From Bacteroidales bacterium (GTDB lineage: Bacteria > Bacteroidota > Bacteroidia > Bacteroidales > UBA10428): 64,000 nt of DNA. The position numbers and the translations under genes are program-made. This document shows, one piece after another, positions 22,308 to 30,975 of this stretch (position 1 is its first letter; every line of letters starts with the position of its first letter). The notes beneath the pieces are model-generated. The model worked only from the letters and a program-made list of their open reading frames with translations. It was not told the DNA's origin and did no database searches. The stretch covers positions 1 to 64,000 of the forward strand of contig JAFGBD010000017.1 in assembly GCA_016933335.1 (NCBI GenBank). The letters run 5' to 3'.

Positions 22308-25022
22308 ATGAAACCAACAAATAAGATGCCCGTGATTGTTTTGTTAATGGGATTAGTGTTGTTATCAACCACAATGGACGAATCAAATGCATTAAGTACC
22401 AGTCATAAGGATATTCATATTTACAAAAGCCTTTTACTGATAAGGAGCCTGTATCAGTTTGAGGAAACAGACAGTATCATAGATGATTCCGGAGAGCAAA
22501 CAAAATCTGATTCCGTAAATAAAGCAATATCTGACGAATCTCTGATTCCGGAAGCATCAGAAGAAATCACTGAGGATAAGGTTGATATGCCGTCAAGTGA
22601 TCGGGATAGCGACAGCCTGGATATCATCAGTCAATCATCAGAAGCTCAAACAGGTAAAGCGGCCAGATTTCCATTTTACAGAAGATGGTGGTTTTCATTT
22701 CTTCTGGTTCTCCCCGTTTTCCTGATAATGCGCCGCTCTTATTTAAAAAAGGAAGGTGAATTTCTAAATACCATTGAAAAGCAGAAAGAAGAGATAGAAA
22801 CTGTTAAAGAGCAGCTGGTTGATACGGAGACCCATTTTGATAAAACGCAAAAGGAACAGGCTGAGAGGCTGGAAGCTGAAAAGGAGCTCAGATATAATGC
22901 GGAGGGTATATCAAAGTTCAGCGACCTGTTATCCAGAAATAAAAGCAATACAAGTGTACTGGGCCAGAAAATCATATCGGAACTGGTTTCATTTGTTGGT
23001 GCCAATTCAGGCGCCATGTACCTGTTGAAAGAGGAAAATAACGGCAATGAGCCGCTGCTGGAATTTTTAGGAGGATTTGCCCCTGACCTCAGCCAGATCA
23101 AATCATCTTTCAAAGAGGGAGAAGGTTATGTCGGGTCATGTTTCAAAGAAGGTAAAACAATGGAACTGAGTAATACCGAAGAATCATTCATGAAGGTTTA
23201 TTCAGGTCTCGGCGAAGCTTCTCCAAGTCATATTGTCTTCGTACCGCTGAAACAGGATGAATTTAAAATAGGGGTTATTGAAATTGCCTCATTTCGTAAG
23301 CTTGATGAATATAAGATCAGATTCATTGAAAATCTGTCAGAAAACATTGCCTCTACCATTGCATTGAATCAGGCAAATGACAAAATGCAGGCAATGCTTG
23401 AGCAATCAAAGATACAGTCCAAAGAACTTCAGACACGCGAAGAAGAATTAAAACAGAATCTTGAAGAAATGCATGCAACCCAGGATGATCTGAACCGGCA
23501 GATGGAAAAAAACAAAAAGATGCAGGAAAGCCTGATGAAAGAAAAAGCCCTTCTGGATTCACTCCTGAACAGCCTGCCTGATTATATTTATTTTAAAGAC
23601 CTGAACAGTAAGTTCATCAGGATCAGCAAATCAATGTTGCCCCTCTTCCCTGTCAAAGATGTGGACGAAATGATCGGAAAATCAGACTTCGACTTCCAGG
23701 ATAAGGAAACTGCCCAGAAGTATTATGAGGAAGAGAAGAATATCATCAAAACCGGGAAAGGATTTGTTGATAAAGTGATACATGAAGTAATGGAAAACGG
23801 GTATGAACAATGGTCATCAACATCCAAAATGCCATTGTATGATGAGACCGGGAATTGTATCGGTACATTCGGTATTACAAAAAATATTACCGAGCTGAAA
23901 AAGCTTGAAATGGATGCGAAAGAGCGGGCAGAACAGCTGTTATCGCAGGAGGAAGAACTGAAACAGAACCTTGAAGAGATGCAGACCGTACAGGAAGATC
24001 TTCAGAAACAAAAAGAGGAACTGTCAAAAGAAAAAAGCCTGATGGATGCATTATTAAGCAATGCCAAAGAGTCTATCTACTTCAAGGATGAAAAAAGCAG
24101 ATTTATCAAGGTCAGCAATTCAATGGCTAAAATGTTCAAAGTTAAAAGCGTTGAAAAACTATATGGCAAGACTGATTTTGATTTCTTTACTGAAGAACAT
24201 GCGCGTCCGGCTTTTAATGATGAGATGAATATCATTAAAACAGGGAAGCCAATATTGGATAAAATTGAAAAAGAGACACATCCGGACGGACGTGTCAGCT
24301 GGGTAACCACATCAAAAATGCCATTGAGAAACAGTGCAGGTAAAATTATAGGCACGTTCGGTATCTCAAAAGATATAACGGATCTCAGAAAGATGGAAAT
24401 GGCAATCAAGGAAAAGAATGAGGAGCTTCTGGCACAGGAAGAAGAACTAAGACAAAACCTTGAAGAAATGCAGACCACGCAGGAAGAACTGGAACGGCAA
24501 ATCCAGGAAAACAAAGCAATCCAGGAAGAACTGGAAAAAGAAAAATACCTGATGGATGCCCTGATGGAAAATGTTCCGGAATATATCTATTTTAAAGACC
24601 TGGAAAGCAAATTCATTAAAAACAGTAAATCGCACGCTTTACTGTTCGGGTATCCCGATCCGAAAAAAATATATGGAAAATCTGATTTTGATTTTTTCGC
24701 TGAGGAGCATGCCAGACCAGCATACAAGGATGAACAGAGAATTATTAAAACAGGAAAGCCAATCATTAACCTGGTCGAGAAAGAGGTTAAAAAAGATGGT
24801 AAGGTTTCATGGGTCAGTACTTCAAAAATGCCATTGAGGAATCAAAAAGGAAAAGTTGTCGGAACCTTTGGCATTTCCAAAGACATTACCGATATAAAGA
24901 ACATGGAGTTTGAAATAAAGCAGAAGCTGGATGAAAATGAAAAAATAAAAAAAGAGTTCGAGAAAAAGGAAAATGAATTTAAAAAAACAATTCAAAAGCT
25001 CAAACAGGAAATGAAGAAATGA
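22308..25022 (+). CDS. Membrane GAF + triple-PAS coiled-coil sensor without output domain
   Basis: The 904-aa protein starts with a hydrophobic segment (about 8-22) and has a second transmembrane helix at about 127-142 (WWFSFLLVLPVFLIMRR). It therefore presents a short Ser/Asp/Glu-rich loop outside the cytoplasm. Inside are a coiled coil (150-195), a GAF domain (about 205-350, GEGYVGSCFKEGKTM), and three PAS domains (about 420-545, 575-700 and 755-870). Each PAS begins IYFKD, contains GK(S/T)DFDF, and ends GTFGI(S/T)K(D/N)IT. They are joined by coiled coils with the repeated LKQNLEEM pattern. No kinase, GGDEF, phosphatase or HTH domain follows. The GAF and coil regions are paralogous to those at 18480-19190. 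Confidence 0.85.
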   Translation: MKPTNKMPVIVLLMGLVLLSTTMDESNALSTSHKDIHIYKSLLLIRSLYQFEETDSIIDDSGEQTKSDSVNKAISDESLIPEASEEITEDKVDMPSSDRDSDSLDIISQSSEAQTGKAARFPFYRRWWFSFLLVLPVFLIMRRSYLKKEGEFLNTIEKQKEEIETVKEQLVDTETHFDKTQKEQAERLEAEKELRYNAEGISKFSDLLSRNKSNTSVLGQKIISELVSFVGANSGAMYLLKEENNGNEPLLEFLGGFAPDLSQIKSSFKEGEGYVGSCFKEGKTMELSNTEESFMKVYSGLGEASPSHIVFVPLKQDEFKIGVIEIASFRKLDEYKIRFIENLSENIASTIALNQANDKMQAMLEQSKIQSKELQTREEELKQNLEEMHATQDDLNRQMEKNKKMQESLMKEKALLDSLLNSLPDYIYFKDLNSKFIRISKSMLPLFPVKDVDEMIGKSDFDFQDKETAQKYYEEEKNIIKTGKGFVDKVIHEVMENGYEQWSSTSKMPLYDETGNCIGTFGITKNITELKKLEMDAKERAEQLLSQEEELKQNLEEMQTVQEDLQKQKEELSKEKSLMDALLSNAKESIYFKDEKSRFIKVSNSMAKMFKVKSVEKLYGKTDFDFFTEEHARPAFNDEMNIIKTGKPILDKIEKETHPDGRVSWVTTSKMPLRNSAGKIIGTFGISKDITDLRKMEMAIKEKNEELLAQEEELRQNLEEMQTTQEELERQIQENKAIQEELEKEKYLMDALMENVPEYIYFKDLESKFIKNSKSHALLFGYPDPKKIYGKSDFDFFAEEHARPAYKDEQRIIKTGKPIINLVEKEVKKDGKVSWVSTSKMPLRNQKGKVVGTFGISKDITDIKNMEFEIKQKLDENEKIKKEFEKKENEFKKTIQKLKQEMKK

Positions 25023-25335: not shown

Positions 25336-28300
25336 ATGAGAAAAGTTTTACTACCGATGATTATAATGGGAGTTTCGTTTTTAACAGCTGTCGGACAGGC
25401 TCCCAGATTATGGCTGAATGCCGGTGAATTCTACACTGAGATGGCAGCAGGTGAGATTGATTCCCAGCTTGTGATCATCCGGAATACAGGTAACAGGGAT
25501 CTGAATTGGAGTTTTACGGATGTCTATGGCAACAGTGTTGATTTCACAAAAGCTGATTATGCCGACTGGACACTGGCTGAAAACCAGGACAGGATAACCG
25601 GTGCCGTCTGGATAACCAGGGCCAATGAAAGAGGGATTTTTAACATTGCCCGGGAGGAGGAATTTGACTGGATGTCCCCGGTAAACACTGAATGGGCCCC
25701 TGGCAACACCCTGGGAGTTGATCCCGGTGATTACACAAACTGGGGAAATGCCGTTGGCTGGAATCCTCCCAATATGGTAGGCAAAACATATTCTATGTTT
25801 CTGCCGGAATATTCACAATTTTACGATGTGGTGTTTCACAGATGGACACAAGGTGCAGGCGGTGAAGGACAGGGAGGCGGATTTTCATATACACGTACGG
25901 AAATACCCAGGTGGATAAGTGCGTCTAAAATGTCCAATACTTTGATCCCCGGTGGGTCTGATACGGTCTGGGTTTACTTTGATGCCGGAAACCTGGTGCA
26001 AAGAAACTATGTGGCTTACGCTGAAATGACCACAAATGACCCGCTCACACCTCTGGCAGTGATAACCTTTAATCTGAATATTTCTTCGGGCAATCCCGAA
26101 ATCTATATTGAAGAAACCTCAATTGCATTTAATGATGTGTTTGTGAACTATCCGGAAACATATCAGCTGAATATCATTAATGAAGGCTCCGGGGACCTCG
26201 AGATAACCGGTGTTGCATTCAACCTGCCGGAGTTCTCATCTCCAACAACCAGTCTGACTGTGCCTCCGCTGGATTTCCGATCAGTAGATGTTGTGTTTAC
26301 CCCGTTATTGAAAAAAGAATATTCTGACACGATCTATCTGTCCAGTAATGATACCGATGATCCGCTCATAAAGATACCTCTTACCGGTACAGGTATCGCA
26401 CCTGCTGATATCCAGGTCGATCCTTTATCCTTCGTTGAAACTGTACCCCAGGGCAATATTGTTGCGTTAAAACTGGTTATTTCCAACACCGATTCGACCG
26501 ACCTGGAATGGGGAATAGATGTTATGGCTGACATGGTTAAAACCGGCAATGAGGTTACATTCACCAAAGCAGATTACAGCGACTGGAACCTCCCGTCCAA
26601 CCAGGATATCTGGTCGCCTAATGTTACCATAACACGTGCAAACAGCCAGGGAATTTTCAATATCGCAAATGAAGCCAGTTATCAATGGGGTTCACCCTCG
26701 TTAACACTCTGGTCGTTTGGAAATACGGGTGAATTAGAACAGGATGACTATGAAATCTGGGTAGATGCGGTAATGGGCAATCCGCCTTCAATGGTTGACA
26801 ATCCCATGTCAGTATATCTGCCCGAAGACGATATATACTATGATATCCTGTTCCACAGCTGGTCAGGTGGCGGAAGCGGAGGAGGATTTTCATATACCAG
26901 GCAGTTGTTCACCAAATGGCTGGGTATATCAGAAGCATCAGGAACAACAAGTATTACCGAACCCGACACCGTAACTGTGCTGATTGATGCAACCGGCCTG
27001 GTGAACGGGACCTATTCGGGAAGTCTTGCCATATACAGCAATGACCCTGATGAAGGAGAGATTAACATTCCTGTTCAGATTACAGTTGCAGGGGGAGTCC
27101 AGAATATCAGTGTATCTGAGCCATTGCTTGATTTCGGGGATGTCTTTGCAGGTGATTCAAAGATCCTTGCACTTGAAATTGAAAATGACGGAACAGGTGA
27201 TCTGACAGTAAGCGGGATTACAACGATCAGTGATAAATTTGAGGTTGCTCCCTCATCCTTCACACTGAACGGCAATTCCAAACAGACTGTTGATATTGAA
27301 TTTTCTCCTGAATCGGCAGAAAGCGTAGTTGATACTTTATACATAACAAGTGATGATCCGGAGACCCCGCTTGTAAAGATACCGATTGTTGCAAATGTTA
27401 TTTTACCTCCGGGTATTGAAGTGCCGACCCAGGATATCTCCGTCGACATAATGAGCGATGATATCTTTGTTTATAAACTACCTGTTAAGAATACCGGTGA
27501 TAACGATCTTGAGTATGAAATTGTAAGAAAACAGCAGGTTGTTTTCTCTAAAGAAGATTATGCAGACTTTACCCTGCCTGAAAATCAGGACAGGATAACC
27601 GATAATGTCTGGATTACCAGGGCAAGCACCCAGGGCCTGTTTAATGCCGCTACTGAGAATTCGTTTAACTCAACCATATCACCTGACGGGACCGAATGGG
27701 CATACGGAGCTACAGAAGATGTCGATCCGGGTGATTATGAGGTATGGGTTAATGCAATAGGCTGGTACCCTCCGGGAATGGTAGGTAATGTATTATCGCT
27801 TCACCTGATTGAAGAGGATCTTTATTATGACGTGGAATTTACGAGCTGGACACAGGGCGGCAACGGGGGAGGATTCTCATACATCAGAGCAGAACAAATG
27901 CCGGACTGGCTTGACGTGGTAAACAAGAGTGGTACTGTTGCTCCCGGAGAGACAGACACGGTGGAACTGGTATTCGATTCCGAAGGGCTGAATGAACAGG
28001 CATACCAGATCACTTTCCTGATGAATACAAATGTACCGGGAAGTAAAAGCATCCTGTTTAATGTAACAATGAATGTACAAGGCGTACCGGATATTTCCAT
28101 CTCAGCTAATGATCTTGATTTCGGTACCACTTATATCGGTTTTCCTGATACATTGCAGGTAATTGTTACCAATACAGGCACCGATTCACTGGTACTGGAT
28201 AACCTGACAACGCAAACCGGTTATTTCAGCCCGGTTGAAGATCAGCTGCTGGTTATGCCCGGTGAAGACAGACCTTTACGGATGGTATTCAATCCCGATG

Positions 28301-30975
28301 CTTTACAGGAATATCTTGACACTGTGGAATTTTCAACGAATGTGACAGGTGTTCCTTCAATGTCGGTATCCCTGAAAGGTATGGGTGCCAATCCGCCCAA
28401 CCTGTCTGTCGAGCCTGAAATGCTGAGTTATGTGACCTATTATGATAAGATCATAACCGATTCGGTATTCCTGCTGAACAGTGGTTCCGGTCCTGCATTA
28501 TGGAACGCAAATCTCATTGACAGGAATATCGGTCTCGATGATGTTCTTGAAAATCTGAATACCAACAGTGCCGGTATCATCTCACAGATACCAAACATGT
28601 ACACCTTTTCCTACGACGGAGATGATTATTCAATAGGTGACGGCGGGAATGATATGTATGATGGAGGTAACTACCTCAGTACATCAATGGGAATGTCAAA
28701 TATCATGTATTCGGATAACATTATTGTCAGCGGAGATATGCATTTTGGTGCAAACACTGCATATTTCACGCGGCACCTGGACGGATTGTTTGTGCTTGCT
28801 GCTGACATGAATGAAGTGGAATCCTTTCACATCGACGGAGACCTGGGTGCTGACGGAGGCGGAAGTTACAACTCTGCCGTACTTGAATATGAATATAATG
28901 GAATTAGATTCAAGGGTTTTGTCAAGAGGGTTTACAATGCAGGAGATCCTTCAGTAAATCACCTGGTGATCATTGAAGAAAACCCAAATGCCACGCAGTC
29001 GATTGGCACTACTACAAATAGTGATATGCATTATCTGGAAGGATTATCCGGAACGCAGAGAATGTATTATCTGCTTTATGCAGGTGCCAGCGGTTATTAT
29101 ATTGATGATCCCGGCACCATGGCCATCATGGAAGCTTTCATTGAAAGCGTATATATGGCACCGGAGTGGATTAAGCTGACTTTTACAAATGATGCCATTG
29201 CTTCATCATCCACAGACACCATCGGTATTACGATTAATACAACAGGAATGATGTCGGGAGATTATAACGGAAGAATTTTCATTCCATGTAACAATCCGGT
29301 AAACCGGATGCTGGAAGTGCCGGTAAGTCTGACTGTCAAGGGCATTGCGGTTGTCAATCCCCTGGAAGACATGCTGGTTAATGAAGGATTTGTATCTGAT
29401 ACCATTGATATTTCAGGCGTGTTTGAGGATGCAGAAGGAGACGCGCTGGAATATACGATAACCAGTAGCGAACCAGAGGTGGTTACCGTTGATACCACGG
29501 AAGGTAAATTACTGGTAATGGAAGCCGGCACAGGAACTTCGACCATTACCATCAGGGCAGCCGATGGATTTGGCAATGTTGAGTATGAAGATTTCCAGTA
29601 CAGGGTCAATGCCAATCCAACGCTGCTGACTCCAATAGCAGATTATACGGTAAATGAAGGATTTGCAGCAGATACGATTGATTTATCAGCTGTATTTGCC
29701 GATGTGGATAATGATCCACTGAAATTCAGTTTCACCAACAGCAATCCGGCAACAGTAGACGTATCTGTAATGGAGAATATGCTGCTGATCGGTGAGGTGG
29801 CATACGGTAATTCAAACATCTCGGTTACGGCATCTGACAGTGTAGGAATTCCTGCTACGGATGAATTTGTGATCACTGTCAATTCTTTGCCTGTAGTAGC
29901 CGGTGCGATTAATGACACCACTGTGAATGAAGGATTCGCCAGTTATACCGTTGATCTGTTAGCCGTATTTAACGATGCAGATAATGAAACCTTGGCATAT
30001 GAATTAACAAACAGCAACCCGGCTGCGGTAACCGTATCTCTAGCAGGTGATGTGCTTACCGTACAGGAGGTGGCATATGGCATATCAACCATTTCTGTTT
30101 CAGCAACCGACAACATCGGCACACCGGCCAGTGATGAGTTTGTGGTCACGGTCAATGCTTTGCCGGTTCTGGCCAAAGCCATAAACGACACCACCGTGAA
30201 TGAAGGATTCGCCAGCTATACCGTTGATCTGTCAGCCGTATTTAACGATGCGGATAATGAAACCCTGGCGTATGAATTAACAAACAGCAATCCAGCTACG
30301 GTAACCGTATCTGTAACAGGAGATGTGCTTACCGTACAGGAAGTTGCATACGGCAGCTCAACCATCTCCGTTTCAGCATCTGACAACATCGGGGCACCGG
30401 CCGGTGATGAATTTGTGGTCACCGTAAATGCAATCCCGGTGGTTGCCAGTGCATTGTCCGACATAAAGATGGATGAGGGCTTCGTAACCCATACTGTAGA
30501 CCTGGGCAGTGTTTTTGCCGATAATGATGACACCCAGCTGGAACTTTCTGCCACCAGTGACAATACTGCTGTCGTAACAGTGTCGGTAGATGCTGCAACC
30601 CTGACAGTTACCGAAGCAGGTGTCGGAACCGCCAATATAACTGTGACTGCAACAGACAGCAAAGGGGCAGATGCATCGGATGTGTTCGAATTCACAGTAG
30701 AAGATGTTACAGCTCTTGAAAGCCTGACAGATGCCGGCGTCAGCCTGTATCCGAATCCGACAAAAGGTAAGATTTACCTGTCGGTTGAAAATGCAGACCA
30801 CATGCTGATTACTGTTGAGTTTACAAACATAACAGGAGATGTCATGATGAACGACCGGTTCCGTTGCTCAGGAATAGCAAGGGAACTTGATCTTACATCG
30901 TTTTCAAAAGGTATGTACTTCATGAAAATCACATCTGACGACTGTTCAGTTGTTAAAAAAATAATCATTGAATAG
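25336..30975 (+). CDS. Giant type IX-secreted repeat protein (ASH-like, cadherin-like, novel module)
   Basis: The 1879-aa protein has a signal peptide (MRKVLLPMIIMGVSFLTAVGQ) and a C-terminal type IX sorting domain (SLYPNPTKGKIYLSV to SVVKKIIIE, about 1800-1879), so it should be exported through the outer membrane. The N-terminal 1060 residues alternate ASH/HYDIN-like Ig sandwiches (DFGDVFAGDSKILALEIEN type) with three copies of a module of about 118 aa (68-187, 407-522, 735-851). A region at 1070-1340 looks like a unique globular domain (SYDGDDYSIGDGGNDMYDGG). Five cadherin-like repeats of about 91 aa follow (1336-1790). The sequence suggests a long adhesin or structural surface fibre; no enzyme motif is seen. 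A perfect terminator follows. Confidence 0.9.
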   Translation: MRKVLLPMIIMGVSFLTAVGQAPRLWLNAGEFYTEMAAGEIDSQLVIIRNTGNRDLNWSFTDVYGNSVDFTKADYADWTLAENQDRITGAVWITRANERGIFNIAREEEFDWMSPVNTEWAPGNTLGVDPGDYTNWGNAVGWNPPNMVGKTYSMFLPEYSQFYDVVFHRWTQGAGGEGQGGGFSYTRTEIPRWISASKMSNTLIPGGSDTVWVYFDAGNLVQRNYVAYAEMTTNDPLTPLAVITFNLNISSGNPEIYIEETSIAFNDVFVNYPETYQLNIINEGSGDLEITGVAFNLPEFSSPTTSLTVPPLDFRSVDVVFTPLLKKEYSDTIYLSSNDTDDPLIKIPLTGTGIAPADIQVDPLSFVETVPQGNIVALKLVISNTDSTDLEWGIDVMADMVKTGNEVTFTKADYSDWNLPSNQDIWSPNVTITRANSQGIFNIANEASYQWGSPSLTLWSFGNTGELEQDDYEIWVDAVMGNPPSMVDNPMSVYLPEDDIYYDILFHSWSGGGSGGGFSYTRQLFTKWLGISEASGTTSITEPDTVTVLIDATGLVNGTYSGSLAIYSNDPDEGEINIPVQITVAGGVQNISVSEPLLDFGDVFAGDSKILALEIENDGTGDLTVSGITTISDKFEVAPSSFTLNGNSKQTVDIEFSPESAESVVDTLYITSDDPETPLVKIPIVANVILPPGIEVPTQDISVDIMSDDIFVYKLPVKNTGDNDLEYEIVRKQQVVFSKEDYADFTLPENQDRITDNVWITRASTQGLFNAATENSFNSTISPDGTEWAYGATEDVDPGDYEVWVNAIGWYPPGMVGNVLSLHLIEEDLYYDVEFTSWTQGGNGGGFSYIRAEQMPDWLDVVNKSGTVAPGETDTVELVFDSEGLNEQAYQITFLMNTNVPGSKSILFNVTMNVQGVPDISISANDLDFGTTYIGFPDTLQVIVTNTGTDSLVLDNLTTQTGYFSPVEDQLLVMPGEDRPLRMVFNPDALQEYLDTVEFSTNVTGVPSMSVSLKGMGANPPNLSVEPEMLSYVTYYDKIITDSVFLLNSGSGPALWNANLIDRNIGLDDVLENLNTNSAGIISQIPNMYTFSYDGDDYSIGDGGNDMYDGGNYLSTSMGMSNIMYSDNIIVSGDMHFGANTAYFTRHLDGLFVLAADMNEVESFHIDGDLGADGGGSYNSAVLEYEYNGIRFKGFVKRVYNAGDPSVNHLVIIEENPNATQSIGTTTNSDMHYLEGLSGTQRMYYLLYAGASGYYIDDPGTMAIMEAFIESVYMAPEWIKLTFTNDAIASSSTDTIGITINTTGMMSGDYNGRIFIPCNNPVNRMLEVPVSLTVKGIAVVNPLEDMLVNEGFVSDTIDISGVFEDAEGDALEYTITSSEPEVVTVDTTEGKLLVMEAGTGTSTITIRAADGFGNVEYEDFQYRVNANPTLLTPIADYTVNEGFAADTIDLSAVFADVDNDPLKFSFTNSNPATVDVSVMENMLLIGEVAYGNSNISVTASDSVGIPATDEFVITVNSLPVVAGAINDTTVNEGFASYTVDLLAVFNDADNETLAYELTNSNPAAVTVSLAGDVLTVQEVAYGISTISVSATDNIGTPASDEFVVTVNALPVLAKAINDTTVNEGFASYTVDLSAVFNDADNETLAYELTNSNPATVTVSVTGDVLTVQEVAYGSSTISVSASDNIGAPAGDEFVVTVNAIPVVASALSDIKMDEGFVTHTVDLGSVFADNDDTQLELSATSDNTAVVTVSVDAATLTVTEAGVGTANITVTATDSKGADASDVFEFTVEDVTALESLTDAGVSLYPNPTKGKIYLSVENADHMLITVEFTNITGDVMMNDRFRCSGIARELDLTSFSKGMYFMKITSDDCSVVKKIIIE
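25537..25896 (+). repeat. Module copy 1 (FTKADY...GGGFSYTR)
   Basis: This is the first of three homologous protein modules (residues 68-187). Shared marks are (F/V)xFTKADYxDW, NQDRIT, the (V/T)xITRANxxGIFN block, a DPGDYxxW segment, NPPxMV and the closing GGGFSYTR. Confidence 0.8.
26554..26901 (+). repeat. Module copy 2 (FTKADY...GGGFSYTR)
   Basis: Second copy, residues 407-522. It keeps FTKADYSDW, VTITRANSQGIFN, GNPPSMV and GGGFSYTR; NQDRIT is changed to NQDIWS. Confidence 0.8.
27538..27888 (+). repeat. Module copy 3 (FSKEDY...GGGFSYIR)
   Basis: Third copy, residues 735-851. It keeps DYADF, NQDRITDNVWITRA, DPGDYEVW, WYPPGMVG and GGGFSYIR. The spacing between copies is about 330 residues. 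Confidence 0.8.
29341..30705 (+). repeat. Five tandem 273-bp cadherin-like repeats
   Basis: Units begin at 29341, 29614, 29887, 30160 and 30433, an exact 273-bp (91-aa) period. Each has the core VNEGF, then VDLxAVF, DxDN, and TVxVT or a variant. Units 3 and 4 are nearly identical, which suggests recent duplication and possible length variation by recombination. Confidence 0.85.

Follow-up and report, generated by a model that had tools for sequence, protein, structure and literature searches.

The closest described systems are the repeat-array cargo of the type IX secretion system (T9SS; PF18962, TIGR04183) and the ASH, HYDIN and MSP-like domains (PF15780, PF22544, DUF1573). In the former, repeated extracellular domains lie between a signal peptide and a C-terminal sorting domain; the latter have a PapD-like fold. 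An 1879-aa protein encoded in the window, the whole 64,000-nucleotide stretch of Bacteroidales DNA analysed here, has the complete layout of T9SS repeat-array cargo and uses ASH-like domains as hosts for a second kind of domain, with intact ASH copies separating successive hosts. It departs from known cargo in its repeated unit, which belongs to an unnamed family; elsewhere, this module occurs as lipoprotein-like proteins and in organisms outside the Bacteroidota, whose export route may differ. The module has neither a sequence nor a fold match to ASH domains themselves and is placed in a loop of its host after the third predicted strand.

The carrier protein begins with a signal peptide, judged from sequence, and ends in a type A sorting domain, and its ASH/HYDIN-type domains are recognized by Pfam (PF22544, E 6e-38). 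The initial annotation had described it as a type IX-secreted protein with three homologous copies of an unnamed module, each ending in GGGFSY(T/I)R. Type IX secretion is borne out by the tail, which both PF18962 and TIGR04183 match. BLASTP within the protein confirms the homology of the three regions, with exactly the proposed boundaries, at 51–57% pairwise identity (E 6e-28 to 6e-41), far beyond chance, and the characteristic ending is present in every copy. The family profile fits copy 3 best, and copy 2 retains the conserved core intact except for R19 and W25. No further copies were found elsewhere in the assembly by a genome-wide search. Coordinates of all features are collected in Table 1.

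Table 1. Features of the 1879-aa protein and its gene (positions refer to the window).
Feature	Position	Strand	Evidence
Gene for T9SS-secreted multidomain protein, 1879 aa	25336-30975	+	ORF; Pfam and NCBIfam domains
N-terminal half of split ASH-like domain around copy 1	25399-25527	+	Flank alignment; homology with copy 3
Module copy 1, residues 68-187	25537-25896	+	hmmsearch E 2e-42; BLASTP against other copies
C-terminal half of split ASH-like domain around copy 1	about 25897-26085	+	Flank alignment; homology with copy 3
Intact ASH-type domain after copy 1	26218-26403	+	Part matched by Ig_CFAP65
N-terminal half of split ASH-like domain around copy 2	26413-26547	+	Flank alignment; homology with copy 3
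Module copy 2, residues 407-522	26554-26901	+	BLASTP; hmmsearch
C-terminal half of split ASH-like domain around copy 2	about 26902-27075	+	Flank alignment; homology with copy 3
Intact HYDIN/ASH-type domain after copy 2	27106-27387	+	PF22544
N-terminal half of split ASH/PapD-like domain holding copy 3	27403-27534	+	Model of 27382-28104; Foldseek alignment with ASH/PapD/MSP structures that bridges the insert
Module copy 3, residues 735-851	27538-27888	+	hmmsearch E 2e-49; AlphaFold2 pLDDT 97.8
C-terminal half of split ASH/PapD-like domain holding copy 3	27889-28080	+	Same model; Foldseek
Intact ASH-type domain after copy 3	28087-28386	+	Cep192_D4 and DUF1573 matches
Fourth slot: different unnamed insert, about 210-250 aa, in fourth split ASH-like domain	28438-29205	+	No Pfam match; homologues in relatives; flank alignment
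T9SS type A sorting domain	30745-30972	+	PF18962 E 1.7e-13; TIGR04183 E 4.6e-10

The modules had been described as alternating with ASH-like domains. The ASH domains are indeed present, with an intact one following each module, but the module is predicted to lie within every second ASH domain and not between domains, so that the repeating pair is a split ASH domain with its insert followed by an intact one. This arrangement emerges from a 241-residue segment (27382-28104) comprising copy 3 and its host, which was modelled at pLDDT 94.5. Foldseek matches the model to ASH/PapD-like structures of HYDIN, CEP192, OCRL and MSP (E 4e-6). Targets of 112–142 residues (HYDIN, CEP192 and OCRL) span approximately 230 alignment columns of the 241-residue model, i.e. 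they run around the insert, and the HYDIN PapD-like domain reaches a TM-score of 0.73 by target length across it. This stretching of short targets implies that the halves of the host domain flank the module on both sides. The host is of ASH/HYDIN type both by the Pfam match of its intact copies and by its PapD-like fold once the insert is skipped. In flank alignments, the pattern I.NTG..DL.W.. before the module and P.WL....SG...PG.....V..D after it recurs in Bacteroidota and Neomarinimicrobiota homologues, and in many homologues the flanks are two ASH halves. On these models, every second ASH/PapD-like domain is split in two by a module that sits in one of its loops. For the different insert in the fourth slot (GGNDMYDGGN...), a search of 60 genomes found homologues in just four relatives, and three of the four also carry the main module.

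The module, approximately 117 residues long, is an autonomous extracellular domain. Among the matches listed, the last module is complete in 143 ORFs; 54 of these stop no more than 12 residues past GGGFSYxR, and in 34 more, 61–120 residues remain after the module. Where a short protein has the module at its C-terminal end, a lipobox-like pattern is common (21 of 36), and all ten of the mid-size forms examined are made up of just the module and a T9SS sorting tail (E 4e-7 to 2e-15). The whole mature protein is often a single module, either preceded by a signal peptide or lipobox-like site or followed by a T9SS tail. Other fusion partners are of an extracellular, adhesin-like character and include LamG/ConA-like, bacterial Ig, PKD, TSP3 and cadherin-like domains, and one member has a weak dockerin match. 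In single-module proteins, an 'IWxGP' stretch, read by eye, usually precedes the module, so the true N-terminal limit of the domain may be a few residues upstream of the boundary used here.

The family was collected with a degenerate DNA pattern for its NQDR..VW.TR core, which retrieved at least 116 stretches in genome contigs. HMM searches place at least 199 module stretches in at least 138 sources, some of which are overlapping pieces of one gene, and reveal two pattern loci (L112 and L142) to be chance matches. The module is present in at least eight phyla, with the great majority in Bacteroidota and others in Fidelibacterota/Neomarinimicrobiota, Verrucomicrobiota, Planctomycetota, Hydrogenedentes, Krumholzibacteriota, Eisenbacteria and Spirochaetota. 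Loci labelled Pseudomonadota are single ones, and the Thalassobius locus among them may be mis-binned. Labelled as alphaproteobacterial, this locus (L128) encodes a Flammeovirga-like single-module lipoprotein on a contig that is probably misplaced. In even samples that count the present genome, the module is found in 11 of 392 Bacteroidota genomes (about 3%) and in 5 of 60 near relatives; among 241 Verrucomicrobiota genomes, only the seed genome has it. A single copy is present in 12 of the 14 genomes reached through loci of other lineages. Copy 2 of the 1879-aa protein clusters with its counterpart, the second copy in a congener (support 99/87), and copies 1 and 3 have their positional counterparts in the congener among their nearest rows. 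This pairing by position indicates that the three copies are old and have been maintained separately. A viral or phage origin was rejected, phages and plasmids giving no match and a pattern scan of viral contigs coming up empty. A contig classed as viral in IMG/VR (L017) encodes, in an ORF of 1592 aa, two copies of the module, each within a split ASH domain; it is probably bacterial or mis-called, as the same split-ASH architecture makes it look like host DNA.

Over the weighted members, F3, K5, N16, Q17, D18, T27, R28, N36, P49, W54, R117 and the GGF.Y end are near-invariant. The core had initially been called Trp/Asp-rich, a description that does not hold: it is made of Lys, Asn, Gln, Asp, Thr, Arg, Trp, Gly, Phe and Tyr, and is not specifically rich in Trp and Asp. 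K5, N16, Q17, D18, T27, R28, N36 and R117 could just as well be a structural network buried in the fold or make up an active site. The overall explanation that we favour, at a probability of roughly one half, is an unnamed family inserted into ASH loops of a T9SS-exported protein, with the modules as putative binding elements on a stalk. In this model, T9SS exports the 1879-aa protein to the cell surface, and the module occupies the loop of three of the four split ASH/PapD-like domains. The ASH array would then form a stalk that may present the modules sideways, where they would act as multivalent binding elements of an adhesion or glycan type and not as enzymes. Such a binding role, displayed on an ASH stalk, is the most likely one because of the extracellular location, the multivalent repeats, the stalk-like hosts and the lectin-like fusion partners.

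The same residues can be read differently. If the module served a purely structural purpose, as decoration or spacer, the conserved polar side chains would form a folding core and engage no ligand, and the mixture of conserved charges, glycines and aromatics does resemble a hydrogen-bonded core. The module is also tolerated among many repeat contexts, and family members share no obvious His, Ser or Cys whose conservation would hint at catalysis, nor an acidic pair. This alternative is nonetheless unlikely, given that a spacer would hardly make up whole proteins with only a lipobox-like site or T9SS tail attached, and that certain side chains are kept almost invariant from phylum to phylum, more strictly than a generic spacer requires.

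Gene neighbourhoods in other genomes bear on a catalytic role. A DUF5777 barrel gene lies directly downstream of a single-module gene, on the same strand, in seven loci (L041, L045, L105, L109, L053, L092 and L141) from three lineages (Flammeovirga, Flavobacteriaceae and Flammeovirgaceae). YceI sits between the two in the Flammeovirga loci, while the two Flavobacteriaceae loci are preceded by a tRNA_anti-like gene and followed by one for a CxxCH cytochrome c. This neighbourhood, seen in some Flammeovirga and Flavobacteriaceae, fits poorly with a plain adhesin. Along with the near-invariant K, N, Q, D, T, R, N and R, it would suit a small enzyme, or a domain that binds a metal or cofactor, with a possible part in redox or envelope chemistry. 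Such a function is improbable in view of the tandem arrays, which reach seven copies per protein among the matches listed, and of the variation at D98 and other acidic positions in single-module proteins. Moreover, most genomes, the present one included, lack DUF5777 or its neighbourhood. DUF5777 was rejected as a general operon partner, being limited to these seven loci and missing beside the Aureicoccus gene. It was not found in the present genome by a search run without a positive control, so this neighbourhood does not explain the 1879-aa protein.

Returning to the favoured reading, the claim that the family is unnamed withstood a broad set of searches, and the profile search that had been suggested as its potential refutation placed the module in no existing characterized family. 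Against Pfam-A (2025), the three copies remained unmatched even at E 10, and when 138 diverse members were scanned singly, no consistent family appeared and the gathering cut-offs placed the module in none. For the same 138 members, NCBIfam (June 2026) gave nothing above its curated cut-offs, only scattered single-member matches (best E 0.017), and PHROGs gave no significant match by hmmscan (best E 0.0017, inconsistently in four members). PDB sequences yielded nothing credible with single copies or with profiles of 16 and 138 sequences; matches to a sulfatase (E 0.05) and a beta-lactamase (E 0.03) are not significant and fail the fold test. A literature search did not find GGGFSYTR, NQDRITDNVWITR or DUF5777, and no paper was found linking ASPM-SPD-2-Hydin with Bacteroidetes.

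The structure prediction that the initial annotation called for gave a very confident fold for copy 3 (pTM 0.89; AlphaFold2 with 138 sequences in the alignment), mainly beta with two short helices. In the PDB, Foldseek detected no match to the module at E ≤ 0.001 (best E 1.2, TM-scores at most 0.35), with the ASH host, which the same tool found, as positive control. The closest plausible candidate, the DUF4466 protein 4ei0, has a Foldseek probability of 0.12, a TM-score of 0.35 by query, an rmsd of 6.7 and E 1.4, and is not a match. Viral structures (BFVD) gave no Foldseek match either. Compared with the PDB and BFVD, the module is confidently predicted to have a fold that resembles no solved or viral structure. 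The least probable alternative holds that the module belongs, as a divergent member, to a known family that sequence searches overlooked, such as DUF1554 or a C-type-lectin-like or galactose-binding-like fold. It draws on weak DUF1554 matches in 6 of 138 members (best E 0.0076) and STIV_turret_2nd matches in two, but profile-profile comparison with 15 DUF1554 sequences gave a probability of just 1.8% (hhalign, over 36 columns), and Foldseek, which retrieved ASH relatives at E 4e-6, returned neither lectins nor galactose-binding structures up to E 10. DUF1554 (PF07588) was consequently discarded as parent family and is not related as far as tested.

The family is thus new and unnamed, of an ordinary kind, namely a module of extracellular proteins. 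Many bacteria have it, and often it makes up an entire small surface protein, so it is a real building block, probably one that binds a partner outside the cell. The chances are about even that it forms a new family of domains whose fold is absent from solved structures and which serves as an exchangeable plug-in, either as a stand-alone surface protein or as a loop insert in an ASH stalk, with the slot open to unrelated modules. Its wide spread, stand-alone forms and lack of a solved fold add to its interest. A name for it would give an annotation at one stroke to many surface lipoproteins and T9SS cargos now called 'hypothetical'. With about 120 mature residues, the single-module forms lend themselves to crystallography and to ligand screens. 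That different inserts dock in the same loop of an ASH domain suggests modular construction of surface stalks.

The remainder of the protein, between the fourth slot and the sorting tail, contains approximately five cadherin/He_PIG-like repeats (VNEGF...DL..VF.D.D...L.Y...) of about 85 aa each (29386-30720). The upstream neighbour gene (22308-25022) encodes a 904-aa sensor-like protein with about three PAS-like units (YIYFKDL.SKFI...GKSDFDF) joined by coiled coils.
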